Positions 1,608 to 54,506 of a DNA stretch of 64,000 nucleotides are shown in pieces (the stretch's first letter is position 1; every line of letters begins with the position of its first letter). Position numbers and translations under genes: made by a program. Source of the DNA: Rhytidiadelphus loreus (taxonomy: Eukaryota > Streptophyta > Bryopsida > Hypnales > Hylocomiaceae). The notes under the pieces are model-generated. The model saw nothing but the letters and a program-made list of their open reading frames with translations. It ran no database searches and was not told where the DNA came from. Location: the NCBI GenBank assembly GCA_947034895.1, contig OX344763.1, forward strand, positions 22,103,001 to 22,167,000, in the 5' to 3' direction.

Positions 1608-1617
1608 ATAGTTAGAC

Positions 1618-2640: not shown

Positions 2641-2689
2641 ATTCCGTGTCATCTTACCATGTTGTTGTGGTTAAGAGCGCTTACTACAG

Positions 2690-16850: not shown

Positions 16851-17345
16851 TATTTTTTGTTCATGAATCAGAAAGAGAATGTAAACCCTAAGCATAGGTT
16901 TGTATGCATCTAGCTTAACTCTTAAATGCCAAAGGCACCACAATATGGTATGTGCAAAACTTTCAAGGGAACTAAAATTTTACCAAATTCCTATTATTAG
17001 TGGTTTATATTTTTGAAAGATTCCTTGAGAAGTCTAGTTTTACCATCAAAAAAATAATCTGATTTTCACAATGAATGATTATGATTTTTCTATCCAAGAT
17101 TTTGTGCAAGGGTACCGTTTGCAATCTTGACAATGTTGAGGGCTCTTGGATTTCAGCCTCAAAATACAATAGACCTTGTATACAAAATCACATTAGAGAT
17201 TCATTTAAAAAAAATTTAGAGTACATTTTGAATAGCTATAAATTGATTGAGGTTATGCTTGATAGGCCCTTCAACCTCATATCTTTTTGTTGACCAACTT
17301 TTTAAAGTTTAACAAGCAAAAAAAGAGCTCAAAGATTTTCATCAA

Positions 17346-18220
17346 CGTGAATTTCATGACTTTATATTTTTTTGGACATGAAAGTACAGGGCAGCTTCTT
17401 CCTTTAAATTTGTGTTTCAAAATAAGGTCATTCCAAGTGACCACCACTTGCATGTTTTTTTGAATTCTTGTGTTCATGAGTAATTGCAACTTCGACAACA
17501 TGTTTCCCATTAGTTCCCAACGTGAATTTCATGACTTTATATTTTTTTGGACATGAAAGTACAGGGCAGCTTCTTCCTTTAAATTTGTGTTTCAAAAAAA
17601 GGTCATTCCAAGTGACCACCACTTGCATGTTTTTTTGAATTCTTGCATTCACGAGTAATTGCAACTTCGACAACATGTTTCCCATTTGTTCCCAACGTGA
17701 ATTTCATGACTTTATATTTTTTTGGACATCAAAGTACAGGGTAGCTTCTTGCTTTAAATTTGTGTTTCAAAAAAAGGTCATTCCAAGTGACCACCACTTG
17801 CATGTTTTTTTGAATTCTTGCATTCACGAGTAATTGCAACTTCGACAACATGTTTCCCATTCGTTCCCAACGTGAATTTCATGACTTTATATTTTTTTGG
17901 ACATGAAAGTACAGGGCAGCTTCTTCCTTTAAATTTGTGTTTCAAAAAAAGGTCATTCCAAGTGACCACCACTTGCATGTTTTTTTGAATTCTTGTGTTC
18001 ACGAGTAATTGCAACTTCGACAACATGTTTCCCATTTGTTCCCAACGTGAATTTCATGACTTTATATTTTTTTGGACATCAAAGTATAGGGCATCTTCTT
18101 GCTTTAAATTGTGTTTCAAAAAAAAGGTCATTCCAGGATAGGGTCTCTCATTAATTTATTTTTTGCACATGTTCTCTGCAAAACTTTCATGGGTGAATTT
18201 CACGATTTTTAATTTTAGTG
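17346..18220. repeat. 175-bp satellite, five copies
   Basis: CGTGAATTTCATGACTTTAT starts at 17,346, 17,521, 17,696, 17,871 and 18,046, an exact 175-bp period; the last copy degenerates and diverged relatives continue to about 18,480. The size is like plant centromeric or subtelomeric satellites, but here it lies between two divergent genes. Confidence 0.9.
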
Positions 18221-19199: not shown

Positions 19200-19658
19200 A
19201 CTTTGTGCATTCGCTTGTGACTTCTGCGTTTGCGTACTCTCATTCCATTTTCCGTCGTCCACCGCTGCTCTCCCTCAAACTTTTGTTCAATTTTTAGTTT
19301 CTTGACGTTGTTGTTTCAATTTCTGGAGCGAGTCATTGTTGAAGTAGGCGTCTTGATCTTGCAGGTACCGATAATGTCCTACTACATGAGATTGAATTCT
19401 AACACTTTGTTTGAGTGATTTCTGCGTTGCATTTGTGTTTTGTTCTACACCTCGTACTCTTGATTTCTAGGTAGTCAATCAGTTGCAGTGCATTCAAGGA
19501 AGTTCAATTGCGAGCTTCATTTTTTGGTATTGGGAAGAATGTCTAAGTGTGAATGGGTTTCCGTAAATATGGATCTATTTTTAGAAATAATTTATGATTT
19601 TAAAATAAAAACAGATTACTACACTAAATTAATAGACATCCAATTTGCTAGACGAGCA

Positions 19659-20884
19659 ATTCAGGTTGCACCAACCTAAATTGCATATCTTCAGTCCTTT
19701 GTCCCACACCTTGATTTCAATATGAAAAATCAGAAGTATAGATGTGCAATTCAGGTAGATCCGACCTGAATTGTCATTTCGGAAATCAACAGTCATTTAT
19801 AGCATTTCAGGTTGCACCAACCTGAATTGCATATCTTCAATTCTATGTTCCCCGTCTGGATTTATATATGAAAGAATTCATAAGTATACGTGTGCAATTC
19901 AGGTTGGTCCGACCTGAAATGCCATGTCGGAAATCGATTGTCTACTAATGCATTTCAGGTTGCACCGACCTGAATTGCATAACGTCAATTCTAAGTCCCA
20001 CGTCTAGATGTATATATGAAAAAATTCAAAACTATATGTGTGCAATCCAGGTTGGTTCGACCTGAAATGCCATGTCGGAAATCGATTGTCTACTAATGCA
20101 TTTCAGGTTGCACCGACCTGAATTGCATAACGTCAATTCTAAGTCCTACGTCTGGATGTATATATGAAAAAATTCAAAACTATATGTGTGCAATCCAGGT
20201 TGGTTCGACCTGAAATGCCATGTCGGAAATCGATTGTCTACTAATGCATTTCAGGTTGCACAGACCTGAATTGCATAATGTCAATTCTAAGTCCCACGTC
20301 TGGATTTATGTATGAAAAAATTCAAAAGTATATGTGTGCAATTCAGGTTGGTCCGACCTGAAATGCCATGTCGGATATCGATTGTCTACTAATGCATTTT
20401 AGGTTGCACAGATCTGAATTGCATAACTTCAATTCTAAGTTCGACGTCTGGATTTATATATGATAATATTCGTAAGTATAGATGTGCAATTTAGGTTGGT
20501 CTGACCTGAATTGCATACCTTTAATTCTAAGTCTCTCGTCTAGGTTTCTATATGGGAAAGTTCATTAGTATGGGTGTGCAATTTAGGTTCGTCTGACCTG
20601 AAACGTCCTGTCGGAAATCAATAGTCTATTAATGCAATTTAGGTTGCACTAACCTGAATTGCATATCTTCAAATTTTATATCCCACACCTAGATTTAAAT
20701 ATGTACAGAACAGTAGTATATGTTCTCAATTTTGCTTGATTCGACCCTTTATGTCATGTTGGAAATGAATAGTCTACTAATGCATTTCAGGTTGCACTGA
20801 CCTGAATTGCATCCCTTTATTTGAAATAGAATGTGAAAAAATGTTTTGTGTAATCACATAATTCAGGTATGACCAACCTGAAGT
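19659..20884. repeat. Right array of alternating palindromes, ~148-bp period
   Basis: AGGTTGCACCGACCT and AGGTTGGTCCGACCT alternate; the first type recurs at about 19,951, 20,099, 20,247 and 20,395 (148 bp). About 16 sites in 1.2 kb, each framed by CAATT/AATTGC or CATTT/AATTGC. The array fills the 5' intron of the DDE-type gene up to the acceptor TGGATTGTAG at 20,960. Confidence 0.9.
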
Positions 20885-20971
20885 GAAAATGAAACAAATC
20901 TGAATGCCTTTCCTACTATTTATGCGATAACTAGTTTTAAATTGTTTTATGTTATTTGGATTGTAGACAAG

Positions 20972-23809
20972 ATGGGGTCCAATTCTTTACCGGATGACAT
21001 GATGGACTCATCAGAGGATGAGTTGCAAGCTCTGGAGCAAATGAATGTTGGCATTCCTGAGTGTGAAGGACTTCCGCGGCCAATGTGGAATACAAAATTT
21101 GTTACTTTGTATAATGTTGAAGCGGAACTTGTTGGAGAGGGTACTTGTCATAGTGTGAACTCTGAACTTGTACTTGGTGCCAATGGGCCTCTCAGAGACA
21201 CTCATGTATCAATGCACATTTCAAAGTCACATTCTGAAGTGGATATTCCTGCGGAGCACGTACATTCATTGCTGGCTTGGCCTATTACACTGGTCCATTG
21301 TCGTGGAGCAAGTCTGCATGATCATGAAGCTAGGGACAATTTCAATCGTCATCGAGCGGCGCTCTTGAACCCACCTTCCTCGAAATCTGCTAGACCATAT
21401 ACAAGTGCTGCAAGGAACCCACCTCGTGAGACTGCTGTCAAAACAAAAAAATTGCTCACACAAGAGTCAATCAACGAGGTTTCTAGCAAAGTGTGTTGCA
21501 ACCAAAATTGTATTCAACCCTTTCCTAGGGAGAAAATTTGGGCCTTTAGAGAACGCATGTATCGAAATTCGACGTTCAAACATAGAGCATTCATGAAGAC
21601 TGAAGTACATAGACAAATTCATCGCGATGCACGTGGTAGGCGGATGGTCACGGTTGAAGAAATAAATGTGTGTTTGCGCGCATGGATGCATATTGCCGGG
21701 GTCGCAGAGGCTACATTCTATCGGTATTTGAAATACATGAAGGACAATCGGGAAGCAAGGGACCACGGTAACATGGGATTGCTCAAGCCTAGAGAGCATA
21801 CCGAACAAGCTACAGCTTCGTTGAAGTGCATCCTAGAAAAGGAAGCCGATCACATGCCACATTGTACAAGGACTTTGAAGGCAGGTGAGAAGATTGTATC
21901 CAAGATTCTTCCAGCCTCATTTCAATGGAAGGATCAATTATTAAAACTGAATGAGACCAATGCGGCTTTTGGTTTGAAGGAGATTTCAACTTCGAAGTTG
22001 AGCAAGATCAGGTCAACCAAGTTCCCAGAGTACGATGTGAAGAAGCCGGGAGATAATTTTGCTCGATGTGGTACTTGTGACAAGTTGAATGAGCTTATGA
22101 AGGGTTCTATTGCTGGATCCCAAAGTTCTATGAAGTGGTCCAAGAGGTTGACCAAGCATAGTATCACTGCTCGCGCACACAGGGATTTGTATTACATAAA
22201 CCGGAATTGGTCGTATAATTTTCCACATGAATGTGTTACAATTATACACGACAAGATGGATCATGCCAAAACTGCTTCTCCAGTCTTTTCTCACAAGAGT
22301 AAAGAACTTGATGGGCTTGTGAAGCTACCCGTTTCCGTGACGGGTATGATTGTACATGGTCATGTAGATGTGCGTTATGCGCATTATGGCTTGGATGTCT
22401 TTGCCCATGATTCCAACTATACCATTGGTTCAATGGCAAAGTTGTTGCGAGATCTAGAGTTGGAACCGAAGTCTTCTTCTCGGGAGTTGTTCAAGAATTC
22501 AAAGTCCACCAATTTGTTTAAGGCGGTGCTTGAAGGTGCAAGTATGTGTGAAGCATCACTACTGCCGGTGCCGAATACATTAACCCCGGCGATGCGATTA
22601 CCACCAATTCTGAACGTGCAAATGGACAATGCCACTGGGGACAATAAGAATAGATATGTTTTCTGTTTTTGGTCTCTTCTTGTTGCGAACAAGATCTTCC
22701 GTGAAGTCTACATGAACTTCATGATTGTCGGTCACACGCATGATGACATTGATACGCTATTTGGAAGATGGAGCATGGATTTGAAGAAGGAGAACTTTCC
22801 TACAATTCCTTCTCTTATGAAGTCCTTCATGGATGTGGATTCCATCCCCACGATTCCTCATCTTATTGAAGAGGTGCCCGATTTCAAGGGTTTCATTGCA
22901 GGTTCATTTGTGGATGGTGATGACATCCTTGTTGGGCACACAAAACCACATCAAGTAAAGTTCTATCTGGATTCAACAGGATGTCCTGTCATGAAGTACA
23001 AGCTTTTGTGCACAGATGCAGACTGGTTAGGAGAAGACGGAAGAGGCATTAAGTTGTGGAAAGAAGATGATGAAGGACAAAGTTTTTGGCCACGCGGTTC
23101 GCCGTTGCCAGTTCCACTGAAGCCAATGAAAGGCTTGGACGACATCGTCAAAGGTGTATCAGGGTTTGTGAAGTATTGGGAGAATTTGTGCAATGCCGAT
23201 GTCACCGGGGAGTATAGAAGACGTTACAAGCATTTGGTGAAGTATTGGCATGGCGTGAAGGTAGCATTGATGGAACCATTTCCTACTTTTGATGTTTTGA
23301 AGGACGGTTTCTGGCCAACTACCCGCATTGAAGCAAGTCAAGTGGATCAATTAGACGATGACGGTGAGGATCGTGAAGAGTTTGGGGAGGATGAAGCATA
23401 CGTTGGACCATTGAGTGGCCGCCCAAATCCATCCTTCAGAGTAGCACGGGATTTGTTCGAAGGCTATTTTGTTGCGGTTCGACCCGCAGATGGTGACTCT
23501 CATCCAGTTTGGATTGCGAGGGCATTGTCTAATCCGAATTCCAACCTAGAGAATCCGAATTGTGTCCTCATTCAATATTTTCGTCCCACATCAAGGATTC
23601 AAAATGTTCAAGACTTCTATATTGGGTGGGATAGTGATAAAGGTTTGCGTTGGAGGGTTGATGAAACTGAACCACCAATTTGGCAACACACAGATGCTCT
23701 TATGACTGCGTGGAAGTCCAGGATTCAAAAAGATAGTGTGGAGTGTATGATCAAGATTCCGGCTATACAAATTGAAGTCATCAATCAAAGTTTGTCTTCA
23801 TATAATTGA
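20972..23809 (+). CDS. DDE-type transposase-like protein (DUF7869-like)
   Basis: 945 codons, ATG at 20,972 just after an intron acceptor (an ATG at 20,942 lies in the intron), stop TGA. The C-terminal half holds three acidic blocks in RNase H-fold order: IIHDKMDHAK (residue about 425), QMDNATGDNKN (about 550) and GHTHDDIDTLFGR (about 588), a plausible DDD/E catalytic core. The N-terminal half has Cys/His clusters (CCNQNC, CGTC) and the helical DNA-binding-like region expected before it. No premature stop, so it may be functional. It diverges from the ParB-like gene and shares its intronic palindromes. Family name is from memory of the GHTHxDID signature; catalysis is inferred. Confidence 0.65.
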   Translation: MGSNSLPDDMMDSSEDELQALEQMNVGIPECEGLPRPMWNTKFVTLYNVEAELVGEGTCHSVNSELVLGANGPLRDTHVSMHISKSHSEVDIPAEHVHSLLAWPITLVHCRGASLHDHEARDNFNRHRAALLNPPSSKSARPYTSAARNPPRETAVKTKKLLTQESINEVSSKVCCNQNCIQPFPREKIWAFRERMYRNSTFKHRAFMKTEVHRQIHRDARGRRMVTVEEINVCLRAWMHIAGVAEATFYRYLKYMKDNREARDHGNMGLLKPREHTEQATASLKCILEKEADHMPHCTRTLKAGEKIVSKILPASFQWKDQLLKLNETNAAFGLKEISTSKLSKIRSTKFPEYDVKKPGDNFARCGTCDKLNELMKGSIAGSQSSMKWSKRLTKHSITARAHRDLYYINRNWSYNFPHECVTIIHDKMDHAKTASPVFSHKSKELDGLVKLPVSVTGMIVHGHVDVRYAHYGLDVFAHDSNYTIGSMAKLLRDLELEPKSSSRELFKNSKSTNLFKAVLEGASMCEASLLPVPNTLTPAMRLPPILNVQMDNATGDNKNRYVFCFWSLLVANKIFREVYMNFMIVGHTHDDIDTLFGRWSMDLKKENFPTIPSLMKSFMDVDSIPTIPHLIEEVPDFKGFIAGSFVDGDDILVGHTKPHQVKFYLDSTGCPVMKYKLLCTDADWLGEDGRGIKLWKEDDEGQSFWPRGSPLPVPLKPMKGLDDIVKGVSGFVKYWENLCNADVTGEYRRRYKHLVKYWHGVKVALMEPFPTFDVLKDGFWPTTRIEASQVDQLDDDGEDREEFGEDEAYVGPLSGRPNPSFRVARDLFEGYFVAVRPADGDSHPVWIARALSNPNSNLENPNCVLIQYFRPTSRIQNVQDFYIGWDSDKGLRWRVDETEPPIWQHTDALMTAWKSRIQKDSVECMIKIPAIQIEVINQSLSSYN

Positions 23810-27346: not shown

Positions 27347-27351
27347 CTATG
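27347..27351. repeat. Target site duplication, left (CTATG)
   Basis: Identical to 40,498-40,502. Confidence 0.9.
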
Positions 27352-28670
27352 TGTGGACCATAGTATAATTTTAGTTTTTGCCTATTGGTAGTTTTTCATG
27401 CTTAATATGTAGTTTTACCAATAGGGAGGTTAATTTCACTATATATACGGGCTATATGTCTTTTAATTGCTGATAGGGAACTCATGGTGATTTGGAGGGG
27501 CAGATTTTGATGCTCCGATTGGCGGTTATGATCAGTTGGCCTTTGGCCGGTATGTAGTGGTTTTTCACGATTGTGTTTTTTAGTTGACTTCAGAGAGAAA
27601 AGAAGCACTCCTTCCTGCGATTGGAAGTAAAAACAATTGTGTGTTTGTGTTTGTGTTTTTGAGTAATGAGATATGAGATGAATTGTTTTGCCAAATTGTG
27701 AAGTCTATGCAATTGGTGAAGTTTCTGTGTTATGGTTAATTGGAAAATTATGTGTTTTTGGAAGTTGTGTGATTTTGTGTGTTATGTGATGCATATGGCC
27801 AATTGGGTCTAAACTGACTGCATGTGTTAAATAGTTTCCCGATTGGGATATCTGGAATCACTGTGGATCATATACATTACCAATTGGAAAACTGATTGGA
27901 GAGTTTGAAGGATAGGATGGAGTGAGAAATTGGCATAATTGAACAATTGTGATAGATTGAAATAATTTGAGAGATTGAATAAGCATAAACGATTGGAATG
28001 AAAATTAATAAGAATGTTTAAAATGTAATAATTTAACGAATGTGTTTTAATGAGAAATTGATTGTGAGCTTGCGTGATTGAGGATAATTGTAGTCATTAA
28101 CCGATTGGAAAATATTGTGAATAATTTCTAAAAGCTGTATTTGAGACTAAGAATTGGAAATATCAATTGGAAAGCTTAGAAAGAATTTGTGTTGAGTTGT
28201 TAAATTCTAAGAGATCGATTGGTGTCTTAAATTGCAAAATTAAGATAAGTAAATAGAAATCAATCGGAAATGAATTTGGGAATTAAGAAACTGTGTGGAG
28301 TGATCAATTGTGAGGAAAGCTGATTGGTAAACTGAGATATTATACCTGTGGAGTTGAAGACCAATTAGAGAAAGGCTGTGCGTTTATTAGCGTGCTGTAA
28401 AGCAAACAATTGGAAGGTGGAGTAAAGCTGGGGAATTATTGGAGAAATTACCAATCAGAAAAGCTGGAAGACTATGGCCAATTGATTCGATAAGTGGTTC
28501 TAAACCGATTGGTTATTGATATATAATATGAATAAGTCTTACACTCGGAATCTTGCAATTGGCAATGCCGTGGAATAAATTTTACAATCCTATTGGAATA
28601 GTTTACCTCCTAGTGTTCGAATCCTTTCTTAGGATTTATTTTTATAGAAGAAATTAAAAATCCTTCTACA
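27352..28670 (+). repeat. 5' LTR
   Basis: Starts TGTGGACCATAG, ends CCTTCTACA. A TATA box (TATATATA) lies near 27,440. CAATTGG/CGATTGG occurs at high density also here, in noncoding sequence. Confidence 0.95.
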
Positions 28671-28693
28671 TTTTGGCGACCATGCTGGGGAGG
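28671..28693 (+). other. Primer binding site
   Basis: Directly after the LTR: TGGCGACCATGCTGGGG preceded by three T. The TGG start matches a tRNA CCA end and the form TGGCGACC...GGGG is usual for Tat/Ogre-type elements (tRNA-Arg suggested, not verified). Confidence 0.6.
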
Positions 28694-28782
28694 TAATTTT
28701 CATATTTCGATTGGAAGAATAAAATTTACTTAACCTAAATTGTCAATTGGAATGGTGGTGTATGAGATAATGATGAAAGCTC

Positions 28783-29400
28783 ATGAGTTATAATGGGGAA
28801 TCCGAGTCTAGCATAAGTGCTCGAGAGGCAAGGGCTCGTAGATGTTCGCATTCTCGATACCAATGGTGTATCAATCAGTTTGAACACAATCGGTCTGTTT
28901 CATTACCTACTAGTCCCGATTGGAGAAATTATAACGTAGACTCAGATACAACCTCTGACGAGGAAACCAGTAATCAGTGGATTCCACCAATTGGTCCAGT
29001 GGAAACTACAGGATCAGTGCATCCTAATAGTCCAGAGAGAAACGGTGAACCAATTGGAGTTGAAGTAAATTTTGAAACTGAACACCAATCGAGTAGTGAT
29101 TCTGAACCATTATCTCCCGAACCAGAAGTAGAAATCGATTGGTTTGAGAGTGATTGTTCCGACATGGATCATGCACCAGAGGCTCGTCAACAGGTATTAC
29201 CTGTTAGGATGAGAGACGGGGAAGAGGCTGATCGGCCGTATTCGTTAGTGCAATATCCCTATTTTTACGGACAAATCGGTAGTGATCCCGATAGGCATAT
29301 TCATGAATTTTTAACAGTATGTAATGCTAATAATGCTAGAACCGAGGCCCATTGGCTTAGTATATTTCCGGTTACGTTGCAAGCCCATGCTAAATAGTGA
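28783..29400 (+). pseudogene. gag, N-terminal part
   Basis: ATG at 28,783 opens an acidic Ser/Pro-rich segment leading to the capsid-like fold (GSDPDRHIHEFLTVC). TAG TGA at 29,395-29,400 interrupts the frame just before the central capsid segment; the same frame resumes at once with FQRQAPGHFANW. Both stops are explainable by C-to-T change (Gln, and Trp on the other strand). Confidence 0.75.
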
Positions 29401-32400
29401 TTTCAACGTCAAGCACCCGGTCACTTTGCCAATTGGACTGCCTTAAGAGATGAATTTTTAACCCAATTTAGACCAATAGCTTATGAAGAAAGGTTGAGTG
29501 AGCAATTACAAGATATTACAATGACTATGGGAGAATCTATTGATTCTTACTATGGCCGATTAGAAGATTTAGTTTTAAGACTTCCAGCCGGTCATGGTTA
29601 TAATGATCAAATGCAAATGAGATTTTTTATTAGAGGATTGGTACCACATAGGCTAAAAACATATGTAAAAGAAGTGGCTCCAGGTACTTTAAATGATGCC
29701 TATAGGAGGGCAAAATTATGGGAGGAGGTAAATTTTGAGGATAATTATGGGGTGGCTATACAATCTCAACCTCAATTGAGACCTAATATTAATGATAAGA
29801 TGACCTACCAAACTCCATATCCTCCCACTACCTATGTTCCTCCAAATTCTACCGTACAAGTGTCCATACCATCCATAGTGCCGGTCAATGCGGGGCCAGT
29901 ACAAACAATGCCTATTGGTACAACAGTAGTCAAACCAATACCAATAGAGCCAAATAAAATGGAAGCCCAATTGTTAGATTTAACCCATAAATTTGAAGAT
30001 TTGGCCGTTCATTTAAATAATGCAATAGAAAAGAAAGGTCAACCTCCAAATGATAGAGCTAATATATGGTGCACTAATTGTAGAGGTCAGGGCCATATGT
30101 TAAATGATTGTCCCTCGCCATCTAATTTATCCCCTAAGTGTAGATTTTGTGGAGGGAAGCATGAGACGGAATCTTGCCGTAATTTACAAAAAAGTTTAAT
30201 AAATGAGGCAAACCAACGTGCTCAATTGGGTCAAGTATTTGTAGTGGATAATAATAATAACAGTTATGATAATAGTAATAATCCCAATAGGTTTGTACGG
30301 CAATCCACTTATAAAGGAAATAATTTTAATCCTAATTTTGTACCCAAGAATAGAACCTTTAATCCTAATTTTAATCCGAACTTTAACCCAAAGAATTTCA
30401 ATAATGGGGGATTTAATAGTAACAACCCCAATAGGTATATACCACAAAATCCTACAAGTCAAAACCAAGGTTGGAATCAATTGCCCTTTGGAAGTCCTAA
30501 TCAAGGGAATCCTACCTATGGGGGAAATAACCCAAGTTGGCAAGAAAATCCAAATGTGCAATGCTATAATTGTAGAGAAATGGGACATTTCGCAAGAAAT
30601 TGCCCGAATGCTAAGGCTAGCATTCCCTATGTTCCATTGTGTGGCAATTGCAACCAGGCAGGCCATACCGCAGAAGAATGTAATGGGCCAAAACGGGAAA
30701 ATCCACGCAACAATGATGGAATGGTGCGGGAAAATAAAACCGGTCCAAAATTGGTAATGCTTAGCGAAGATAGGGTAGTTCACCATGTTTCAATAAATGA
30801 AGTGAGTTCATTGAGTGGTTGTGATAATTTGAATTTAAAAGAACAATTGAAATCTAATGACGATATTAAAAATGTTAAACAAGTTACTACTAGAGCAAAG
30901 GCTAATAAGCCATCAGTACCAATGGGAAATCAACCTATAATTAATGCCGATGTGATTTTACCGATAGGGAATAAAATTCTCAATGAGAATGTAGAAACAC
31001 CAACGTCAGTGGTGTCGCCATTGATTCAATCAGGGATCACCACTTTACCAATTGTTAATAATGAGAATAAACTATTAGAAAATCAAAACAATGGAGTTTT
31101 GGTGCAAAAAGAAACCCATTGGGTACCTCAAAATATTCCATTAAGTCAACCAGTCCCATCGGTAGATCCTGTGTTGTTAAATTTGAAAACCTTAAATCCT
31201 GTGACCCATGGAGAATTCCAAGAGTATCAACCAGCTCTTGGGATTTTTAAACATCCTATTCAAGAAATCCCATCGTTAGGTCAGGATTCAATAAATATGG
31301 CCAAACCAATTGGTGATGCATTGGATATAGTACCAGACCATCCCAATTGGAAAAAGCAAACAGTACCAATAGGTCAAGTACCGATGAGGAATCAAGTACT
31401 ACCAAATAAGATCAATCGGTTTAATAAAAATAGAAAATCTAAACCAATTGGTATTATGCATGGTACAATTGGCTATGATATTTTAGAAGACTTGGGAAAT
31501 TTAAAAGCTGATATATCTATAAAACAATTGTTAGGAGTAGCACCACAATGTAGGGCTACACTTCAAGAAAATTTAATTAGAAAAAGGAATAGAAAAATGG
31601 TAAATGAAGTTGCTATTAGCCCAGATCCTGGCGCTCCCATGATTGATGTGACAATTGATGGAGTTATAGTTAGTGGTGTACAAGTTGATGGAGGTTCGAG
31701 TGTAAATTTAATGAATTGGGAAACTATGATTAGTCTTCAATTGGAAGGGTTACAAGAAACTAAATTAGTCCTACGTATGGCTGACCAGAGTAGGGTCATA
31801 CCAAAAGGAATTTTACCTAAATTAAAAACCATGATCTCTGGTATTATTTATTATATAGATTATATTGTGTTCCAACAATTGTCTCCTAATACATCCTATC
31901 CTATATTACTAGGTCGGCCTTGGTTATACCAAGCCAAAGCTAAAGACGATTGGGGTAGGGGTTTATTAACAATTGGTTCTGGTTTATCTAAAGTTAAATT
32001 ACAAATGTATTCAAAAAAATACCATGGGGAAACACAATGGGAATCTATTGAACATACTAGTGATCTAGATTATGATTCAGATGTTGAAGAAAATGTAAAT
32101 GCCAACCAGGTACAATTTCATGGTTTAATAAAACCAAACAAATCACTAATTGGTAGAGTATTTAAGGAAATTGGGCCTGGGGAATATCTACTACCTTGTA
32201 AAGACAGTGAAGATTCCGATCGAGCCATTGCCTATTGGTTAATGGATAAGGCTGTCTATGGGGTATCTGATGACCAATCGGAATTAGAACCTACTTGGGA
32301 AACAGAGGACCATTGGGATTATTCTTCTGAGTCTATCCCAATTGAAAAACATGTTCCTAAAGATTTATGTATGGATTTAAATATTGGTAGTGAAGATGAT

Positions 32401-33825
32401 CCAAAAATAATACAAATAAGTCGAGAATTAAAATCAGATGAATTAAATCAATGGTTAAATTTCTTTAAAACTTATTTAGGGACTTTTGCTTTTTCCTATA
32501 AGGATTTGAAGGGTGTACCACCCGAGGTGTGTGAACACCATATAACCTTAGAGGAAGATGCTAAGCCGATTCACCAAAGGCAACATCGGTTAAATCCCAA
32601 ATATTCCCTATTGGTGAAGGATGAGATAGATAAACTTCTAGAAATAGGATTTATCTACCCCGTCCCATTTAGCGAATGGGTTAGTCCAATTGTTGTGGTA
32701 CCAAAGAAAAATGGAAAAATTCGTATATGTCAGGACTACCGGAAACTAAATGCAGCTACTAAGAAAGATTATTTCCCATTGCCATTTACCAATAGTGTTT
32801 TGGACTCTGTAGCAGGTCATGAAATGTATTCATTTCTAGACGGGTTTTCCGGATATAATCAAATTAGTATAGCATTAAAAGACCAATTGTTGACTACTTT
32901 TACTACCGATTGGGGTACGTATGCTCATAGAAGAATGCCATTTGGGGTTTGTAATGGTCCGGCCACTTTTCAAAGAATAGTCACAGTAGCCTTCCAAGAA
33001 TTTCTCCGTAAATTTATGGAGATTTTTCTGGACGACTTTTGTGTCTTTGGCACTAAAGAGGACCATTCTGCCCAATTGGCTCTTTGTTTTGGTCAATGTA
33101 ATAAATATGGTATTTCTCTTAATGCGTCTAAATGTCAATTTGCGGTACCATATGGTAAATTATTGGGGCATATTGTGAGTAAAGAAGGAATAAGTACTGA
33201 CCCTGATAAAATTGATTTAATCATAAATACTCCTAGACCTAGAACGGTAACGGATGTTAGAAGTTTTGTTAGTCTTGGTAGTTATTATAGGAGAGCGGTT
33301 AAAGATTTTGCTACTCATGCCGCTCCCTTAACTAATTTGTTAAAAAAATTAGAAAAGGGTGCTAGCTTGGTATGGACATCAGAGTGTACCAAAGCATTTA
33401 TTACTTTAAAAGAACGATTAAGTACAGCTCCTGTATTAATTCCACCCAATTGGGATGATCCATTTCACGTCTATGTGGATGCTTCCAATATAGCATTAGG
33501 GTGTGTTTTAAGTCAAAAGGATAAAAAGAATATGGACCATCCAATCTATTTTGCTAGTAGACAATTAATAGCGGCTGAGAAAAATTATACTACTACCGAA
33601 CGTGAGGCGTTAGGTATGATTTTTGCTGTTAAAAAGTTTCGTCATTATCTATTGGGATATCCATTCACATTTTATGTTGATCATGATGCATTAAAATATT
33701 TAATTAATAAACCGGATTTAAGTGGCCGATTGGCCCGTTGGGTATTACTCTTACAAGAGTTTAAATTTTCAATTGTGGTTAGGCCTGGCAAAACACATGC
33801 CAATGCTGATCATTTATCCCGATAG
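29401..33825 (+). pseudogene. gag-pol: capsid, zinc knuckles, protease, RT, RNase H
   Basis: Continuous with gag N-terminus. Capsid segment, then two pairs of zinc knuckles (CTNCRGQGHMLNDC and a second CX2C; CYNCREMGHFARNC and CGNCNQAGHTAEEC) separated by an Asn-rich linker of about 100 residues. Protease has VDGGSSVNLM (about 31,690). RT (about 32,600-33,200) has KIRICQDYRKLN, FGVCNGPATFQ and FLDDF. RNase H (about 33,470-33,820) has YVDAS, TTEREALG and YVDHDAL. The frame stops at TAG 33,823-33,825 yet continues in the same frame into integrase. Confidence 0.9.
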
Positions 33826-35199
33826 GAACCAACACCTAACTCCAACATTGTGCCAATTGATGATGAATTACCTGATGGCCAATTGTTTGTGGTTGAGGCA
33901 GTCCAATCGGAATATAAAAATATATTAGAATATTTAAAAACTAACCAAATACCAAGTCAATTGAGTGATAAACAAATTAAACACTTATTACATCAATGTG
34001 CTCCTTATACTTTAATAAATGATGTTTTATATAAACAAGGTACCGATGGGGTATTAAGACGTTGTATATTTTCTAATGAAATACCTTTAATTTTAGAGGG
34101 GTGTCATACCGATGGGTGTGGGGGACATTTCGCGGGAGAACTTACTGCCCGTAAAGTTTTAATGGCTGGTTATTGGTGGCCAACACTTTTTAAGGACGCT
34201 CACCATTTTGCTCGGGCATGTGATCCATGCCAAAGGGTGGGTCGTCCTACACCTACTAAGGCCATGCCATTACAACCCCTATTGGCATTAGCACCATTTG
34301 AAAAGTGGGGGATCGACTTCGTTGGTCCAATTGCTCCTCCTAGTAAACGTGGAAGGAAGCGTTATATTTTAGTTGCAACGGACTACGCCACTAAATGGGC
34401 GGAGGCGGTAGACACTAAAAATAATGATGCACAATCGGTAGCTAAGTTTTTATATGAAAATATAATTTCAAGGTTTGGTTGTCCAATTGAGTTAATAAGT
34501 GATAGGGGTACTCATTTCTTAAATGAAACAATTGAAACATTAACTACTAAATTTATGATTAAGCACCGTAAAACTAGTCCGTACCATCCTCGAGCCAATG
34601 GGCAGACAGAAAAAACAAACGGTTTATTATGTAATATTCTAACTAAAACGATTGCGGGTTCTGGAACTGATTGGGATGAAAAATTATGGGGAGCTCTTTG
34701 GGCTTACCGTACTGCATATAAGGTCACTACTAAGTATACACCATTCCAATTGGTTTATGGGCAGGAGGCTATTCTTCCAATAGAATTTGAGATACCTTCT
34801 TTGAGAATAGCCATTACCAATAGGTTAGGGGATGTTTCTAGTTTAGAAGCTAGACTTGTCCAATTGGAACATTTAGATGAGGAGCGGCGTGAGGCCGTAT
34901 TTAATACTTTTGTTGCTCAACAAAAACGTAAATCCTTTTATGATAGTAAACTACGTCCTAAACAATTTAAAGAAGGAGATTTAGTATTATTATATGATAG
35001 TCGATTCCTTAAATTCCCTGGAAAATTTCAAATCCATTGGTTAGGTCCCTATATTATTGTAAATATGAATCCCAATGGATCCACCCAATTGCAAGATTTT
35101 GAAGGTAAACTTCTTCCTACTCGTATCAATGGCTATCGGTTGCGCTTATATCATAGTTCAGCCGGGGCCGGCTTCAATGATGGAGTGGGGGAGGTGTAA
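33826..35199 (+). pseudogene. Integrase portion of pol
   Basis: In frame with RT/RNase H after TAG 33,823. HHCC zinc finger (GCHTDGCGGHF ... ACDPCQRVG), catalytic core D (GIDFVGP), D (SDRGTHF), E (NGQTEKTNG), then a C-terminal SH3-like region (KEGDLVLLYDSR). Ends TAA at 35,197-35,199. Confidence 0.9.
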
Positions 35200-36187
35200 T
35201 TTCAATTGATAGTTTTTGGGCGGGAGAATGAGATTAATTTATAAATATTAAGGAGAGTATAGGTGAAATTTAAAGTAATAATATTAAATAGTTAAAAATA
35301 AAAATAAATAAAAATAAAATAAATAAATAAATAAAAATAATAAGAAATTTTGGCAATTTTTGGAGTAAATAAAGAAGGATATATTAATGAGTGAGAGAGA
35401 AAAGAAAGCATATAAGGGCGTGAAAAAAAAAAAATAATAATAATAAATAATAAAAATGATAGTAATAATAAAGAAAGAAAAACATGATAATAATTAGTAA
35501 AAGAATAATAAAGGTATTATAGCCAATAGGATAAAATAAAATAACATGATAACGATTAGTAATAAGAATAAGAATAATTTTGAGTGTTTTAAAGAGAGGA
35601 TCTAAGTAGTAATTATGATAAATATAATAGTAAGAAAAGGACCAATGGGAAGAAGATCTTTTGGAGTATTTAAAGTAAAAACAAAAAACAAAAAACAAAA
35701 CAAAACAAAATATAATGATAGTAATAATAAAGAAAAAAATAAAAAATAAAAAAATAAAAAAAAATGAAATTAATGAAATTAATTAAGTAAAATTTAAGTA
35801 CCAATAATAATAATAATTATAGTTACAACAATAAATAAAACAAAATAAATTTGGCAAACATGATTTCAATATAAATTCAAAATACAAAATTATACCAATT
35901 GGAGTAATGATGAGGACGTGGGATTAAGGTGAGTTATGAGGTCCAATTGGTACGCGCGCCGTCAGGGCATCTGACAACCGATTGGAAAAAGGGGAGACTG
36001 AAGGCGGCGCAGAATGGGCACATCATCGCCACAATTGGGAAATACAGTGCAGGAGTTCAAGGTTTTGACAATTGGTAGTTCATTTGTAAATGTTGTAAGC
36101 GCCAATTGTTGTGGTTGTGTGTATGCATTGTGTTTCAATTGGTGAAGCAAGAGTGAGCTGGAGCGCGAGTTGAGAAAAGATTTTCCA
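35200..36187 (+). other. A-rich region between integrase and third ORF
   Basis: From 35,260 to 35,870 the plus strand is almost only A/T/G with ATAA and AAATA runs. No coding signal. From 35,890 the CCAATTGG-type motif returns. It may hold the splice site or promoter for the downstream ORF. Confidence 0.6.
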
Positions 36188-39139
36188 ATGGCGAAGGAGA
36201 AAGAGGATTCAGACGATGAGGTGATGATTGTGAAGGAGGTTTCGGCGCCGGGGGATCGCACATTGGCGGAATTTTTCCGATTGGTGAAGAAACCGAAGAT
36301 TGAAGGCGGGACGTCGGTGTCGGCGCACGGGGAGGCTGGTGCTGTCAACGTGATCTGATCGGTGCCCTGGCCTGCATTGGCGGAACAATTGGAGTTTTAC
36401 CGCGACACTGAAAACGTGAAGATGGTGAAAGAGGCAGGACTATTGGGATTTCTTTCGGCGAGTCTGGTTCCGACGCAAGTGCAAGAACAAGAAGTGGGCG
36501 AATTCGTGAACAAGTATCAATCGGGGACAAGAACCAGTTTTGTCCGGGGAAGACAATTGGAGTTGACGGCAGAGGTGGTTGGAAAGGCGTTGAAATTGCC
36601 CAATCGTGGAATATCTTATGCGGCATTGAGGGCAGAGGATTACCCGATTGGTGGGTGTTTTCCAACACCAGCTGAGGCAGTACCAATCGGGCAGGATAAA
36701 AAGGAGGAATCAATTAGGGTTTTCAAGGCCCAATTGAAGAATGAATGGCGCGAGACGGTGGATTTTGTACAACGATGGTTGCTGCTGGATCTGGATACCG
36801 ATCGGGTGGAAATTGGTGTGATAGTGGCGGCAGTGGCGTTATTTCAGCACGGGGTGGTGATCAATTGGGCGAAATTGCTGGCGAGGAAGCTTAACCAATC
36901 GGTGGAGGAAGTGAAGATTAATTCGAGCCATTCGGAGAAGACTTTTTGCGGAGGCTATTACTTGACGAAGATTTTGGAGGAAGCGAATCCGATTGCTGTG
37001 GTGACAGTCAAGCCCGAACCTGAAGTGAACGAAGTCCAATCGGCGTTGAAGGGGCCGGAGCATTATCAGAAAATGGCAGAGGAGGCAACCCAATTGAAAA
37101 TGCTAGCAACTCACCCATCGATATTCGAAGACTATGCGGCTTTACAACAGCAGCATAAGGATCTTAGAACTCAACACCAATTATTGCAGATTCAGGCGGA
37201 CCGATTGAAGGCGGCTGTTCCAACACCGACCAGTGAGAATTCAAAGGTTGTGGAGCTTCGAAATCAATTGGTACAACAGAAGATGGAGGCGGAGGGGCAT
37301 CGGCAGAAGTACGTGGATTCAAATACGAAACACATGCAAGACTGATCGTTGGTGGCGAATCAGAAGCAACGATTGGAGGATCTTACCGCTCAATATCAAG
37401 CATTGGAGAGGGAATATGAGCGACTTTCTCATCAGCTGACCAATCGGAAGGGTAAGGGAGTTATGGTGGTGGGCGATCCAATTAGCCAATTGGATGAGTC
37501 AACGGGAGGAATAACGGTGGAGGGGTTATTAGAATTATCCTCGTATATTCCACCTGCTCATAATTTGGAGCGAGTTTATACATACGATCGGCAGGTGTTC
37601 TTTCTTATTGCAGACCTGACCTTGAAGCAATGCCTATCGGCTATCGAATTTGAGCGGGTCTGGGAATTGGCAGAGGCATTCAAACAAGAAGACCTTTTGG
37701 CGGACATCGTGATGCGGGGAGATTTGCTTTTGCAAGATTATTGTGCAGGTTATTGGCTGATTGGCGATTTGGGAGCTCGACTATTGTGTTATCATCGCCA
37801 ATTGGAGGAAGTTCAGGCAGAACGGCACCGATTGGAGGCTTTATGTGCGGAACATATCCGGGAACCCAAGTGTGCCGAGTGGGGAAGAATGGTGGCGGAG
37901 AATTTAGCAACCAATTGGGCGCAGTGCCCTATTGCAGATTGGCAATCGACCATTTACAAACTACTGGATGGATTCCGATTGGAGGGATGGATAGTGCAGA
38001 TGATCAAGGATAACCAAGAACGATCGGCTAGAGCGCAGTTCTCGGATGTTCATCCCAGCGAGTATTTTTATACCTATCGGGATACAAAATCGAGATTGGA
38101 GCGTATGGTGAAGGCAAAGTCATTCTCCCAATTGCTGCCATTTAACTTGGATTCACATGCAGTTTTCAAGAACAAGTACAATTGGCAGGTTGCACCGGAG
38201 GCGATTGTAGGGATGCCGTTGAATTTAGATACGTGGAGTTTTGGGAAGTTTGGTAGTGCAACCGATGAGCAATTTTTGGGAAAGTGGGAGAGTTTGTTTG
38301 CCACTGTGGGTGACCGATCGGATGTTTTACTTTGGCAAGCTCTATTGTGGATCGGGAAGGACTACAACTACGAGCAGCAGGCATTAAGCAAACCAATTGA
38401 GTCTTTGATCGCCAACGAGGCTAATTTTCGATTGGACATTGGTGAAGTGCCGGAGAATGTTAAGGAGAATCCCAATTGGTGCTCAGTCGACCGTCGTTAC
38501 AAGTGGCGTATAGATGCACAATTGGATACGGTGTGGTACAATTGGCCGATTGTAGCAGGAACGTGGGGGAGTTGGTATGATTGCGCGGCGTCGTACCTGC
38601 GGTTTTGGCAGGATCACAAAACCCATCGGGATCCAGTGTGTTTTCGGGCGGCCATCTTCTGCAAAGCATTGGCGGAGTAGTGCCAATTTTTCCAAATTAT
38701 CATTGATCCACGATTGGGAGGGCGCATGTTGCAGGATGGAGAGCTCTATGCCCGATTAAATTACAACTGTTGTCGAAAGATGCGCCTATTGGAGTTGATG
38801 TTCATGATGCAGTTTTTGCAGGGGGCGCACAACAATCTGATTGGAGACAAGAATTCCAATCGGAAGGGGCCAATGGAAGTTTTCTTGAACCGAGACCGGG
38901 ATGGTTCACTGAAGCAAGAACGTGCCAATTGGAGAGCGTTATCTCTGGACTGTGATCGAGCCAATCAGGCAGAGCGGAAATCGGGAGCAGGGCGTCCAGT
39001 TTATCAGATGCTGTTACAATGGGTTCCGGGGGCTACTTTCCAATTGATTCCTTACGGGGTGTCGTCCAAGAGTGCCAGGCCGGCGAAGCAGGAGGCGTCT
39101 ACTTCTACGAAGACCAAGCCGATCGTTAAGAAGAAATGA
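36188..39139 (+). pseudogene. Third ORF of the retrotransposon (accessory protein)
   Basis: A single frame of about 983 codons interrupted by TGA 36,356-36,358, TGA 37,343-37,345 and TAG 38,678-38,680 and ending TGA at 39,137. The start at 36,188 is chosen because it opens MAKEKEDSDDEVMIVKEV; an in-frame ATG lies 18 bp upstream. N-terminus: acidic VMIV (SUMO-interaction-like) and RTLAEFF (PCNA-box-like). Middle: INWAKLLARKL shared with the element at 1-1.6 kb and reminiscent of Athila-type accessory ORFs, then a coiled coil (37,050-37,450). C-terminal half is Trp-rich with many NW, QLE and RLE pairs produced by the CCAATTGG motif. Ends Lys-rich. Function unknown. Confidence 0.65.
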
Positions 39140-39159
39140 TTGTATTTGCGGGGACGCAA

Positions 39160-39178
39160 ACAGATGAGATGGGGGCCA
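39160..39178 (+). other. Polypurine tract
   Basis: ACAGATGAGATGGGGGCCA directly before the 3' LTR. Confidence 0.7.
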
Positions 39179-40497
39179 TGTAGACCATAGTATAATTTTA
39201 GTTTTTGCCTATTGGTAGTTTTTCATGCTTAATATGTAGTTTTACCAATAGGGAGGTTAATTTCACTATATATACGGGCTGTATGTCTTTTAATTGCCGA
39301 TAGGGAACTCATGGTGATTTGGAGGGGCAGATTTTGATGCTCCGATTGGCGGTTATGATCAGTTGGCCTTTGGCCGGTATGTAGTGGTTTTTCACGATTG
39401 TGTTTTTCAGTTGACTTCAGAGAAAAAAGAAGCACTCCTTCCTGCGATTGGAAGTAAAAACAATTGTGTGTTTGTGTTTGTGTTTTTGAGTAATGAGATA
39501 TGAGATGAATTGTTTTGCCAAATTGTGAAGTCTATGCAATTGGTGAAGTTTCTGTGTTATGGTTAATTGGAAAATTATGTGTTTTTGGAAGTTGTGTGAT
39601 TTTGTGTGTTATGTGATGCATATGGCCAATTGGGTCTAAACTGACTGCATGTGTTAAATAGTTTCCCGATTGGGATATCTGGAATCACTGTGGATCGTAT
39701 ACATTACCAATTGGAAAACTGATTGGAGAGTTTGAAGGATAGGATGGAGTGAGAAATTGGCATAATTGAACAATTGTGATAGATTGAAATAATTTGAGAG
39801 ATTGAATAAGCATAAACGATTGGAATGAAAATTAATAAGAATGTTTAAAATGTAATAATTTAACGAATGTGTTTTAATGAGAAATTGATTGTGAGCTTGC
39901 GTGATTGAGGATAATTGTAGTCATTAACCGATTGGAAAATATTGTGAATAATTTCTAAAAGCTGTATTTGAGACTAAGAATTGGAAATATCAATTGGAAA
40001 GCTTAGAAAGAATTTGTGTTGAGTTGTTAAATTCTAAGAGATCGATTGGTGTCTTAAATTGCAAAATTAAGATAAGTAAATAGAAATCAATCGGAAATGA
40101 ATTTGGGAATTAAGAAACTGTGTGGAGTGATCAATTGTGAGGAAAGCTGATTGGTAAACTGAGATATTATACCTGTGGAGTTGAAGACCAATTAGAGAAA
40201 GGCTGTGCGTTTATTAGCGTGCTGTAAAGCAAACAATTGGAAGGTGGAGTAAAGCTGGGGAATTATTGGAGAAATTACCAATCAGAAAAGCTGGAAGACT
40301 ATGGCCAATTGATTCGATAAGTGGTTCTAAACCGATTGGTTATTGATATATAATATGAATAAGTCTTACACTCGGAATCTTGCAATTGGCAATGCCGTGG
40401 AATAAATTTTACAATCCTATTGGAATAGTTTACCTCCTAGTGTTCGAATCCTTTCTTAGGATTTATTTTTATAGAAGAAATTAAAAATCCTTCTACA
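39179..40497 (+). repeat. 3' LTR
   Basis: Starts TGTAGACCATAG, ends CCTTCTACA, followed by CTATG. All differences from the 5' LTR that I found are transitions. Confidence 0.95.
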
Positions 40498-40502
40498 CTA
40501 TG
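40498..40502. repeat. Target site duplication, right (CTATG)
   Basis: Matches 27,347-27,351. Confidence 0.9.
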
Positions 40503-44918: not shown

Positions 44919-45500
44919 CCCGGGGAGGACACTCCCTATGTTTTAGCAAACTACGTGCGGCGGAAAAAGTAAAACAAGTAATACACCTTAAAATTTAATT
45001 TCTTTTTCAAAAAAAAATTATGGATAGATTTTACTACTTTATAAGTTTATGTTATGAATTATTGGTATTTTTTTGTGCTAATAGTAATTAGTTATAAATT
45101 TTTGAAGAAAAAAGATACACTGTAAAGCTGAAAATAACTTTCACACCTCTATATTATATAAGAAAAAAAATTTGAAAAATGAAAAATTTTTTATATAGAA
45201 TAGCTTTCTATTGAAAGTTTATTTTGGTTGAATATTGATGCAATAGTCATCTTCATGTGAGCTCTATAAATATTTTAGTTGGAGAACATGCCATTTTAGT
45301 TCATTTTTCAACCCTTTCTAGACAATATATCTTATGTTATTTGGAATTGAATTTTTTGTCAATAGAAACCTTTAGTCATTGTTAAACAAAGCTCAAAATT
45401 TTAGAATGAAATTATAGTTTATTCAAGGTGAATTACATGAATTACTTTTTCCACCGCCGCACGTAGGTACCCCAAATGTAGTGAGAGTGTCCTCCCCTAG
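44919..45500. mobile_element. hAT-type MITE, copy 1 (582 bp)
   Basis: Begins CCCGGGGAGGACACTC and ends GAGTGTCCTCCCCTAG (inverted repeats). Flanked by 8-bp direct repeats ATATTTTC at 44,911-44,918 and 45,501-45,508. Subterminal GTGCGGCGG / CCGCCGCAC also inverted. AT-rich interior, no coding. 8-bp TSD is the hAT hallmark. Confidence 0.9.
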
Positions 45501-49341: not shown

Positions 49342-49923
49342 CCCGGGGAGGACACTCCCTATGTTTTAGCAACCTACGTGCGGCGGAAAAAGTAAAACAA
49401 GTAATACACCTTAAAATTTAATTTCTTTTTCAAAAAAAAATTATGGATAGATTTTACTACTTTATAAGTTTATGTTTTGAATTATTGGTATTTTTTTGTG
49501 CTAATAGTAATTAGTTATAAATTTTTGAAGAAAAAAGATACACTGTAAAGCTGAAAATAACTTTCACACCTCTATATTATATAAGAAAAAAATTTTGAAA
49601 AATGAAAAAAAAATTATATAGAATAGCTTTCTATTGAAAGTTTATTTTGGTTGAATATTGATGCAATAGTCATCTTCATGTGAGCTCTATAAATATTTTA
49701 GTTGGAGAACATGCCATTTTAGTTCATTTTTCAACCCTTTCTAGACAATATATCTTATGTTATTTGGAATTGAATTTTTTGTCAATAGAAACCTTTAGTC
49801 ATTGTTAAACAAAGCTCAAAATTTTAGAATGAAATTATAGTTTATTCAAGGTGAATTACATGAATTACTTTTTCCACCGCCGCACGTAGGTACCCCAAAT
49901 GTAGTGAGAGTGTCCTCCCCTAG
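49342..49923. mobile_element. hAT-type MITE, copy 2 (582 bp)
   Basis: Same ends, length and nearly the same sequence as copy 1. Flanked by 8-bp repeats CAGGAGAG at 49,334-49,341 and 49,924-49,931. Length identity and few differences imply recent activity. Confidence 0.9.
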
Positions 49924-52020: not shown

Positions 52021-52288
52021 TACGGTGTACCAAAAGAGCCATACGGTGTAATCTTGGAATAAGCCCGGGGTACCCGCGCTCAAGCGTGGGGTACCTGCGC
52101 TCAACTGCGGGTCACCCGCGCTCAAGCCCGGGGCACCTGCGCTAGAGAATTTTTGTCAAAATTTTCACTGCCCACTCCAATTTCTCATCCGTTCACATGT
52201 CATCCAAATAATAGTGCTGGAAATTGCTGCTGCGGCACCGAAGCTGAGGAGTGGAAGAATTGTGGGCTTACACAGCGTGCCTCGATTT
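52021..52288 (+). repeat. Left terminal inverted repeat with GGGTACCTGCGCTC units
   Basis: Four 25-26-bp units between 52,065 and 52,145; candidates for transposase binding sites. Confidence 0.75.
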
Positions 52289-54223: not shown

Positions 54224-54506
54224 TACTTGATGAAGGTGAGGTATTTGCACACCAGGATTCAGACAGAGCACATTCAGCGGTGGTATATTAATTTTTTATT
54301 TATGACGACAACCACGTAAACTCCATAGAAACCATACCTCTGCTGAACTGTCCCCTTCCGAGCTAATCTTGTAGATCTTCCAAGCTAATCTTGTAGACAT
54401 CATTTTAATTCCAACAATATCAACAACAAAGTTGCTCATCACGCATGCATACCCAAGAAGAAATGAAGAAATGGTCCCAGAGCGAAGCGCCATCCGAAAC
54501 ATGTGA

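Follow-up and report, generated by a model that had tools for sequence, protein, structure and literature searches.

What keeps a short palindrome recurring through every part of a retrotransposon, coding DNA included? The question is raised by a 64,000-nucleotide stretch of the moss Rhytidiadelphus loreus (assembly GCA_947034895.1, contig OX344763.1, positions 22,103,001 to 22,167,000 of the forward strand), hereafter the window. Its span 27352-40497 is a complete long terminal repeat (LTR) retrotransposon of the Ty3/gypsy type, 13,146 bp long and on the plus strand. The original prediction described this element as saturated with CAATTG-like palindromes and proposed that an element-encoded protein, perhaps the product of its third open reading frame (ORF3), reads them. 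With a probability of about 0.6, we favor the reading that the element and its relatives carry a lineage-specific dyad as a self-label, recognized by an element-encoded DNA-binding protein, probably ORF3. Since the sites are dyads, the protein would be a dimer.

Counts for the element refer to one LTR plus the interior (11,827 bp), with expectations from an order-1 Markov model. There are 69 copies of CAATTG (6.3 expected) and 19 of CCAATTGG (0.45 expected), and CCGATTGG (12 versus 0.20), CCAATCGG (7 versus 0.13), and CCTATTGG (7 versus 0.21) were also in excess. The whole element, with both LTRs, holds 79 CAATTG positions and 21 exact copies of CCAATTGG (27799-39714; first start at 27799, last at 39707). 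In the remaining 50.9 kb of the window both words are near expectation (CAATTG, 36 versus 26.8; CCAATTGG, 1 versus 1.4). These counts bear out the predicted saturation, which is stronger than first described, and the predicted recurrence every 50 to 100 bp also holds, with a mean spacing of core sites of 79 bp. The density is uneven, however, at one core site per 60 bp in the LTR (22 in the 5' LTR, 27352-28670), one per 94 bp in the gag-pol frame (68 in 28777-35199), and one per 58 bp in the ORF3 frame (48 in 36359-39139). The largest gaps between core sites are at 33073-33447, in the reverse transcriptase (RT)/RNase H region, and at 35524-35896, in the A-rich non-coding spacer between pol and ORF3 (35200-36358).

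The unit is an 8-bp dyad, CCRATYGG (class A below), in which C2, A4, T5, and G7 are strict and positions 1, 3, 6, and 8 are tolerant; forms of CCAATTGG with a single change at C2 or G7 are rare (0 to 2 copies each). Its edges are sharp, with 0.63 bits at the outermost base and 0.01 bits at the next base outward, and about 200 sites were estimated by an expectation-maximization model. A host transcription factor (the CCAAT-box factor NF-Y, an E-box bHLH protein, or similar) might have been recruited, with the elements collecting its sites for transcription. CCAAT is half of the class A dyad and occurs 74 times against 18.3 expected (ATTGG, 100 versus 30), and the LTRs are rich in sites. However, sites are no sparser in ORF3 than in the LTR, and gag-pol carries one per 94 bp. 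Moreover, CAATTG alone is clearly enriched among the 16 CANNTG words, with a strict AT center and tolerance at positions 3 and 6. This is unlike an E-box, whose center is free, and the E-box was rejected as the motif. The different dyads of different lineages in one nucleus, described below, are also not predicted by one factor, and we consider a host factor quite improbable.

Most of the CAATTG copies (51 of 69) lie in coding frames, where all three reading frames are used, as predicted (25, 16, and 10 copies, Gln-Leu being favored). In 1,000 permutations of synonymous codons, the coding DNA contained 17.4 ± 3.4 copies of CAATTG (maximum, 28) compared to the 51 observed and 3.9 ± 1.7 copies of CCAATTGG (maximum, 10) compared to 15 observed. 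The excess over a codon-preserving null, which the original prediction had put forward as a check, is thus present. Among all 4,096 hexamers in coding DNA, CAATTG is the most extreme (51 versus 17.0 in 300 codon permutations; z, 9.9; next hexamer, 6.5). When the pieces of the frames were tested separately, the CAATTG count was above that of every one of 1,000 permutations in the two large pol pieces alone (23 copies in 29401-33822, with a maximum of 14; 9 copies in 33826-35196, with a maximum of 8). The looser core CNATNG was above all of them in both of these pieces and also in the two larger ORF3 pieces (18 copies with a maximum of 14 and 27 copies with a maximum of 20). Neither pattern exceeded all permutations in the small pieces 28777-29394 and 38681-39136. 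For the non-coding parts, 300 dinucleotide shuffles were used, and CAATTG was again in excess in the LTR (10 versus 0.67; maximum, 3) and in the pol-ORF3 spacer (7 versus 0.56; maximum, 3).

Asymmetric variants of the dyad are enriched alike in both orientations (CGATTG, 9.6-fold; CAATCG, 8.0-fold). The same was seen for CCGATTGG (59-fold) and CCAATCGG (52-fold), which represent opposite orientations, and for CTATTG (4.8-fold) and CAATAG (2.8-fold), a pair that is not self-complementary as RNA. Such symmetry is what recognition of double-stranded DNA, rather than an RNA signal, would be expected to produce. A signal at the RNA level, such as Gag/nucleocapsid packaging or RNA dimerization, would be compatible with sites spread over the full-length RNA, and family-specific packaging would also diversify. 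In one distant relative, locus L045 (see below), 25 of 34 ACCGGA/TCCGGT sites are in one orientation, unlike the symmetric class A. Nevertheless, the strand symmetry of class A disfavors the packaging mark that had been listed as an alternative in the original prediction, and an RNA signal appears very improbable. A role connected with integration, the other alternative listed there, may still apply.

The 150 core sites are more evenly spaced than expected. Gaps shorter than 30 bp are avoided (18 versus 41.1 ± 4.5; z, -5.1), and gaps of 30 to 60 bp are in excess (62 versus 36.5 ± 5.2; z, +5.0); none of 400 control patterns of similar abundance matched the motif (z extremes, -2.5 and +2.4). Even spacing was likewise found in a further class A locus (L009) and in two class B loci (L018 and L020) and was weaker in L013. 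No helical or nucleosomal periodicity of the sites was detected at the ten periods tried. The even spacing suggests either that one protein is bound per site with steric room or that there is selection for coverage. A neutral origin of the motif by mutation bias, microsatellite-like spread, or gene conversion of a repeat unit could draw on the tandem arrays of the element. These are short or A-rich, and one per LTR contains a CAATTG (27938-27979 in the 5' LTR, 2.4 copies). However, the bases flanking the sites carry almost no information, indicating that no longer unit was copied around, and gene conversion, which had been offered beside selection, is not supported. The excess over the codon null, the even spacing, the near-expected counts outside the element, and the slower silent change described below also oppose a neutral origin, which we regard as extremely improbable.

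Conservation of the sites was examined in nine class A copies. L012, at only 59% identity, was excluded, and so were L017 and L023, whose spans run into those of other loci. Of 66 third codon positions that fall on strict motif bases, 6 were polymorphic (18.0 expected from matching bases away from the sites), and in non-coding DNA 17 of 91 strict positions were polymorphic (30.9 expected). Pooled, these silent positions gave 23 polymorphisms versus 48.9 expected, about half of that at matched outside positions. At first and second codon positions the motif did not depart from expectation (13 of 94 versus 11.7). With sites taken from any copy, a choice that favors variable ones, the numbers were 16 versus 21.2 at third codon positions and 37 versus 45.7 in non-coding DNA. 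None of the 16 usable control dyads was lower than the motif on silent positions (0.47, with the closest control at 0.48). In pairwise comparisons the ratio of observed to expected change was 0.48, and all 89 control dyads were higher (lowest, 0.50). Together with the codon-null excess, the enrichment in both orientations, and the even spacing, this slower silent change supports selection at the DNA level, by which the class A sites would be kept.

The genome (407 Mb in 489 contigs) was searched for ORF3 with its metagenomic relative P0122, yielding at least 75 hits (75 of 191 candidates scored). Sequences were taken for 32 of the 75 hits, and after two overlapping ones were dropped, 30 loci were scored. 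These fall into class A (CCRATYGG; 10 loci), class B (CTATAG; 5 loci), class C (CCAANTTGG; 11 loci), and class D (GWCWANTWGWC; 2 loci), with 2 loci in none of the four. The 28 classified loci carry their own class at a z of 10.9 or higher, and the other classes stay below 5 in each, except for class A words in the class C loci L025 (7.4) and L029 (5.9). The two loci outside A to D form a weak class G, with 17 copies of WGTACW in 4.3 kb each, compared to 2 to 3 in six other loci. When mapped on the ORF3 tree, the five labels can be explained by 4 changes, the lowest number possible (mean for shuffled labels, 15.8; 0 of 200 shuffles as low), although near-copies among the loci inflate this clustering. 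The own-class dyad was also tested against the codon null in eight other ORF3 loci (500 permutations per locus), and the excess was beyond the permutation maximum in all eight. The counts were 46 versus 17.0 (maximum, 28) in L009 of class A; 23 versus 7.6 (15) in L020 and 24 versus 6.6 (14) in L021 of class B; 20 versus 4.3 (10) in L027, 8 versus 2.2 (6) in L024, and 20 versus 2.9 (8) in L030 of class C; and 12 versus 0.7 (4) in L042 and 7 versus 0.4 (3) in L043 of class D. Classes A to D have common half sites, C-x-A and T-x-G, with 0 or 1 central base, as if read by homologous proteins.

GWCWANTWGWC has 13,857 occurrences in the genome and its reversed pattern 3,101; for CCAATTGG the corresponding numbers are 10,579 and 4,060. 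Dense runs of class D are found among the matches listed, for example 21 between C1:2921717 and 2927178, and this run is adjoined by an ORF3 (C1:2926241-2929111) that is 40% identical to that of L042. Two distant class C copies, L024 and L025, share only 1 of 17 sites in place, in alignments that are unsure at below 50% identity, although both are enriched. This suggests that site positions may turn over while the density is kept. For class G, early motif models gave no sharp dyad, and GTAC was found later by counting. Locus L033 carries, besides CCAANTTGG, the 8-mer TAGTTGCA (12 versus 0.2); this word is absent from the pol stretch L040, and a motif model of it gave no sharp dyad.

The ORF3 protein consists of an N-terminal part, a coiled-coil-like middle, and a C-terminal part with HKTHRDPVCFRAAIFC. 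The middle resembles a leucine-zipper profile (E, 0.0015) at 19.1 bits, below the cutoff of 28.1 bits, and a class D relative gave a sub-threshold match to the plant transposon protein PF20167 (E, 0.026). Identity to P0122 is 56 to 73% for ORF3 of class A and 28 to 36% for classes B to D, whereas the integrase of classes B to D is 65 to 73% identical to that of the window element. ORF3 diverges much faster than the integrase, and it is the faster protein that tracks the motif. Words from residues 400 to 926 of ORF3 found seven relatives (P0122 to P0128), which place ORF3 in a protein family that has no Pfam match above the cutoff and is also present in environmental data, most members sharing the stretch around HKTHRDPVCFRAAIFC. 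Words from the first 500 residues found no relative among 7,993 scored candidates. In the metagenomic proteins P0122 and P0124, the peptides leave room for the dyad even at places where the sequence departs from that of the window element (core z, 2.5 and 3.9). No relative was found in viral contigs, and plasmids had no match to a 999-bp query piece. Of 45 matching stretches in prokaryote contigs, 2 code for distant relatives, both in metagenome-assembled genomes and without the motif. A sequence search of the PDB found nothing for P0001, and four PDB matches to the alignment (E, 0.38 to 0.89) were not believed. In 24 RT relatives, the peptides PIG, NW, and QL mostly showed no excess, the exceptions being P0009 (PIG, 4 versus 0.5) and P0008 (NW and QL).

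Six distant relatives were found by their integrase (45 to 51% identity; L044, L045, L046, and L048 to L050). No ORF3 was detected in them by profile or translated search, including N-terminal queries; the sequence covered, counted from the start of the integrase, was 8 kb in L044, L045, and L046 and 4 kb in the other three. A reach of 4 kb would miss a distal ORF3, the ORF3 profile match of the window element starting about 3.5 kb downstream of its integrase start. Neither genome-wide ORF3 search (with P0122 or with a class D ORF3) has a match beside the six relatives, among the matches listed. In five of them, L044, L046, and L048 to L050 (about two lineages), there is no comparable motif. 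The best hexamers have a z of 5.7 to 7.2 and the best dyads, in four of the five, a z of 4.1 to 6.0; in L044, A/T-only words lead (top five z, 10.7 to 15.4). These relatives bear on the possibility that the reader is another element protein, such as the integrase, Gag, or a protease-region product, and that ORF3 merely travels along. The complete linkage of the element genes would allow this, and so would a motif without ORF3 homology in L045. However, the five other relatives have an integrase and neither a detectable ORF3 nor a comparable motif, and the integrases of class A and classes B to D are far more alike than their ORF3 proteins despite quite different dyads. We therefore consider another reader unlikely.

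Several results weigh against the self-label reading or against the part of ORF3 in it, and L045 is one of them. This locus is saturated with WCCGGW (42 in 4 kb), and ACCGGA/TCCGGT occurs 34 times versus 2.3 expected, dispersed over 217-3921, with no ORF3 homology over 8 kb. The third frame of L045 is also of the coiled-coil kind but a different one. The role of ORF3 may be taken there by another protein, or ORF3 may not be the reader. The start of the window (1-2960) is similar, with 55 CCGG versus 16.7, 13 TCCGGA versus 1.4, and a sharp end near 2,960. One frame there has 10 WCCGGW (3.1 ± 1.4 expected; maximum, 9 of 2,000 permutations) and weakly resembles the L045 frame (E, 1e-4, in a single comparison). 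The segment appears to be the terminal part of a further, L045-like element that has a dyad of its own, and it too lacks ORF3 homology. The phenomenon may thus reach beyond the ORF3 family, which favors its generality and counts against ORF3 as the only possible agent.

Further points of this kind concern the protein. ORF3 has no Pfam match above the cutoff and no DNA-binding domain was recognized in it, and structure models of two of its parts were too poor to use (pLDDT, 58 and 43). Since the element genes are all linked, co-variation with the motif is not specific evidence for ORF3. Peptide room for the dyad was not significant in P0123 (1.5 and 1.7) or in P0009, was seen for the 8-mer only in P0008 (3.6; core, -1.2), and was absent from P0125, P0126, and P0128. 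Other points concern the sites. Conservation between family copies, also proposed in the original prediction as a check, is clear in class A but weaker in class B (0.64; 18 of 81 controls lower) and class C (0.67; 8 of 79 controls lower). Even spacing is absent from the class B pol stretch L037 (19 gaps below 30 bp versus 18.7 expected), and the class C and D loci lean to it but are too sparse to tell.

The classes themselves have limits that must be set against this reading. Class C pools lineages first labeled C, E, and F, whose central base differs, and is perhaps not one clade; class G and the CCGG class lack the C-x-A core. Classes A and B overlap in their 6-mer form because both contain CAATTG: class B ORF3 loci have CRATYG at a z of about 11, class A pieces have CWATWG at a z of 8 to 17, and in L020, L021, and L009 the other of the two classes also passes the codon null. 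Their separation rests on CCRATYGG versus CTATAG. In addition, the classes were defined on some of the same loci that were later scored. For this reason the upstream pol stretches are a fairer test, and there CTATAG occurs 29 times versus 1.4 in L037 (class B), CCAANTTGG occurs 8, 6, and 9 times versus 0.2 in L038, L039, and L040 (class C, with E and F included), and GTAC occurs 28 times versus 12.7 in L041 (class G). The predicted element-encoded reader gains circumstantial support from motif classes that follow the ORF3 tree, but not from L045, with its motif and no ORF3. On balance, we hold it rather probable that ORF3 is the dimeric double-strand DNA-binding protein that reads the dyad.

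If the dyad is such a self-label, the candidate reader would bind about one site per 30 to 80 bp and thereby recognize self DNA. Selection would maintain a high density of sites even as individual sites come and go, and the motif would diverge jointly with its protein, keeping a lineage from being of use to rivals. Within classes A to D, homologous proteins would have changed the spacing and flank preference of the common half sites. The likeliest purpose, although we place it slightly below an even chance, would be to remove or block silencing in a sequence-specific way over the length of the element, in convergence with VANC. To our knowledge, Mu-like DNA transposons are the only elements for which a protein that recognizes a motif of its own element is established to act against silencing. 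As the main rival to this purpose, the same label and element protein could instead act on the cDNA, as a coat against self-integration, in condensation or packaging, in protection, or in nuclear import or retention, the recognition step being common to both readings. A full-length and rather even coverage that includes coding DNA suits a coat on linear cDNA, and VANC sites are described in non-coding regions (PMC5735166, PMC10398659). However, this would require a DNA-binding protein that stays with the cDNA, and such a role seems a minor possibility.

For the silencing role the closest comparison is with the VANC proteins of VANDAL (Mu-like) DNA transposons. The passages on these describe family-specific short motifs and a hypomethylation that extends over the element (PMC5735166, PMC10398659; summary in PMC12844716), with the motifs in tandem repeats of non-coding regions. 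The moss elements are similar in having short motifs that differ between related families and a candidate element-encoded reader. They differ in being LTR retrotransposons rather than Mutator-like DNA transposons, and in having palindromic dyads that are dispersed and abundant in coding DNA rather than in tandem arrays; their ORF3 has no Pfam domain above the cutoff. By the tested features the moss system does not belong with VANC, as VANDAL motifs are arranged in tandem outside coding DNA. The VANDAL precedent cited in the original prediction is therefore apt for how the system may work but not for what it belongs to. In sunflower Tekay LTR retrotransposons, the product of an additional ORF is described as resembling double-stranded RNA-binding proteins and is treated beside VANC with regard to self-shaped methylation (PMC12844716). 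Tekay is similar in being an LTR retrotransposon with an extra ORF but differs from the moss element with its saturating motif, as the Tekay passage mentions none (PMC12844716). In the open-licence papers found, no title or start of an abstract mentions motif saturation in LTR retrotransposons. The likeliest function would be one already known from VANC, and the anatomy is one that we have not met as described.

Gag-pol order, a third ORF after pol, and long LTRs are also features of Athila/Tat-like plant Ty3/gypsy elements. The moss element is like these in all three but differs in its ORF3, which lacks a Pfam match above the cutoff, the PF20167 match of the class D relative being sub-threshold. 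Short words that saturate coding and non-coding DNA and are kept by a process at the DNA level are known in bacteria as DNA uptake sequences, Chi, and KOPS; in contrast, the present case is a eukaryotic retrotransposon in which several lineage-specific words co-vary with an element ORF. In En/Spm and Ac/Ds, TnpA or the transposase binds many short motifs in subterminal repeats near the element ends, whereas the sites described here cover the whole length. We tentatively picture, at somewhat less than even odds, a radiation of plant LTR retrotransposons with private dyads, in which every lineage would have recast its sequence, down to its codons, to suit the dyad of its own DNA-binding ORF3. 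The result would be a code for self and non-self by which ORF3 protects from silencing (or coats the cDNA of) its own lineage only, independent of VANC and possibly invented repeatedly, since the CCGG class has no ORF3 homology. The logic known from Mu-like transposons is here taken to an extreme, as four strong and two further lineage-specific dyads are embedded in coding DNA in one genome, where the codon choice of a transposon is bent by something other than translation. If the reading is true, they would be a natural set of matched protein-motif pairs for studying the evolution of dimeric DNA-binding specificity, and self-recognition could be tested in any genome from the sequence alone, by looking for the word that saturates a family. 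Tools that edit silencing at sequence-defined addresses might also follow.

The boundaries of the window element were set by LTR alignment, target duplication, and Pfam domains. A target site duplication, CTATG, flanks it at 27347-27351 and 40498-40502. The 5' LTR and the 3' LTR (39179-40497) are 1,319 bp each and differ at 6 positions, all transitions. The interior encodes gag, a zinc knuckle, RT, RNase H, and integrase, which is the gypsy order, followed by the A-rich spacer and ORF3, all on the plus strand. The gag-pol frame is interrupted by stops at 29395 (TAG), 29398 (TGA), and 33823 (TAG) and the ORF3 frame by stops at 37343 (TGA) and 38678 (TAG); uninterrupted frames of both are present in some other genome copies. 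Among the best 120 of 6,272 RT relatives, metagenome proteins reach 71% identity, and the named ones include proteins of the liverworts Riccia and Marchantia (57 to 60%) and, at lower identity, of many flowering plants.

A related solo LTR of 1,605 bp lies on the minus strand at 59762-61366, with a duplication CATCC and a similar terminal sequence. It carries a class C-like mix with a dyad one base wider (CAA-N1-TTG, 9; CCAA-N1-TTGG, 3), together with AATTGG (13 versus 2.1 expected), ATTTGG (12 versus 2.1), and the class A-type CRATYG (8 versus 1.6). Elsewhere in the genome, L052 (C1:1579664-1583663), downstream of L045, has GGCGAC 10 times versus 0.7 and CGA-N2-TCG 8 times versus 0.22. Other features of the window include a pair of direct repeats at 44919-45218 and 49342-49641 (98% alike, 4,423 bp apart), perhaps the LTRs of another element, with a third partial copy at 63749. 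Inverted repeat arms of 187 nucleotides at 52102-52288 and 54506-54692 (94% complementary, 2.2 kb apart) mark a candidate DNA transposon. A 975-amino-acid frame with DUF7869 (E, 1.4e-42) is found at 20882-23806, preceded by tandem arrays at 17343-18135 and 19656-20514.

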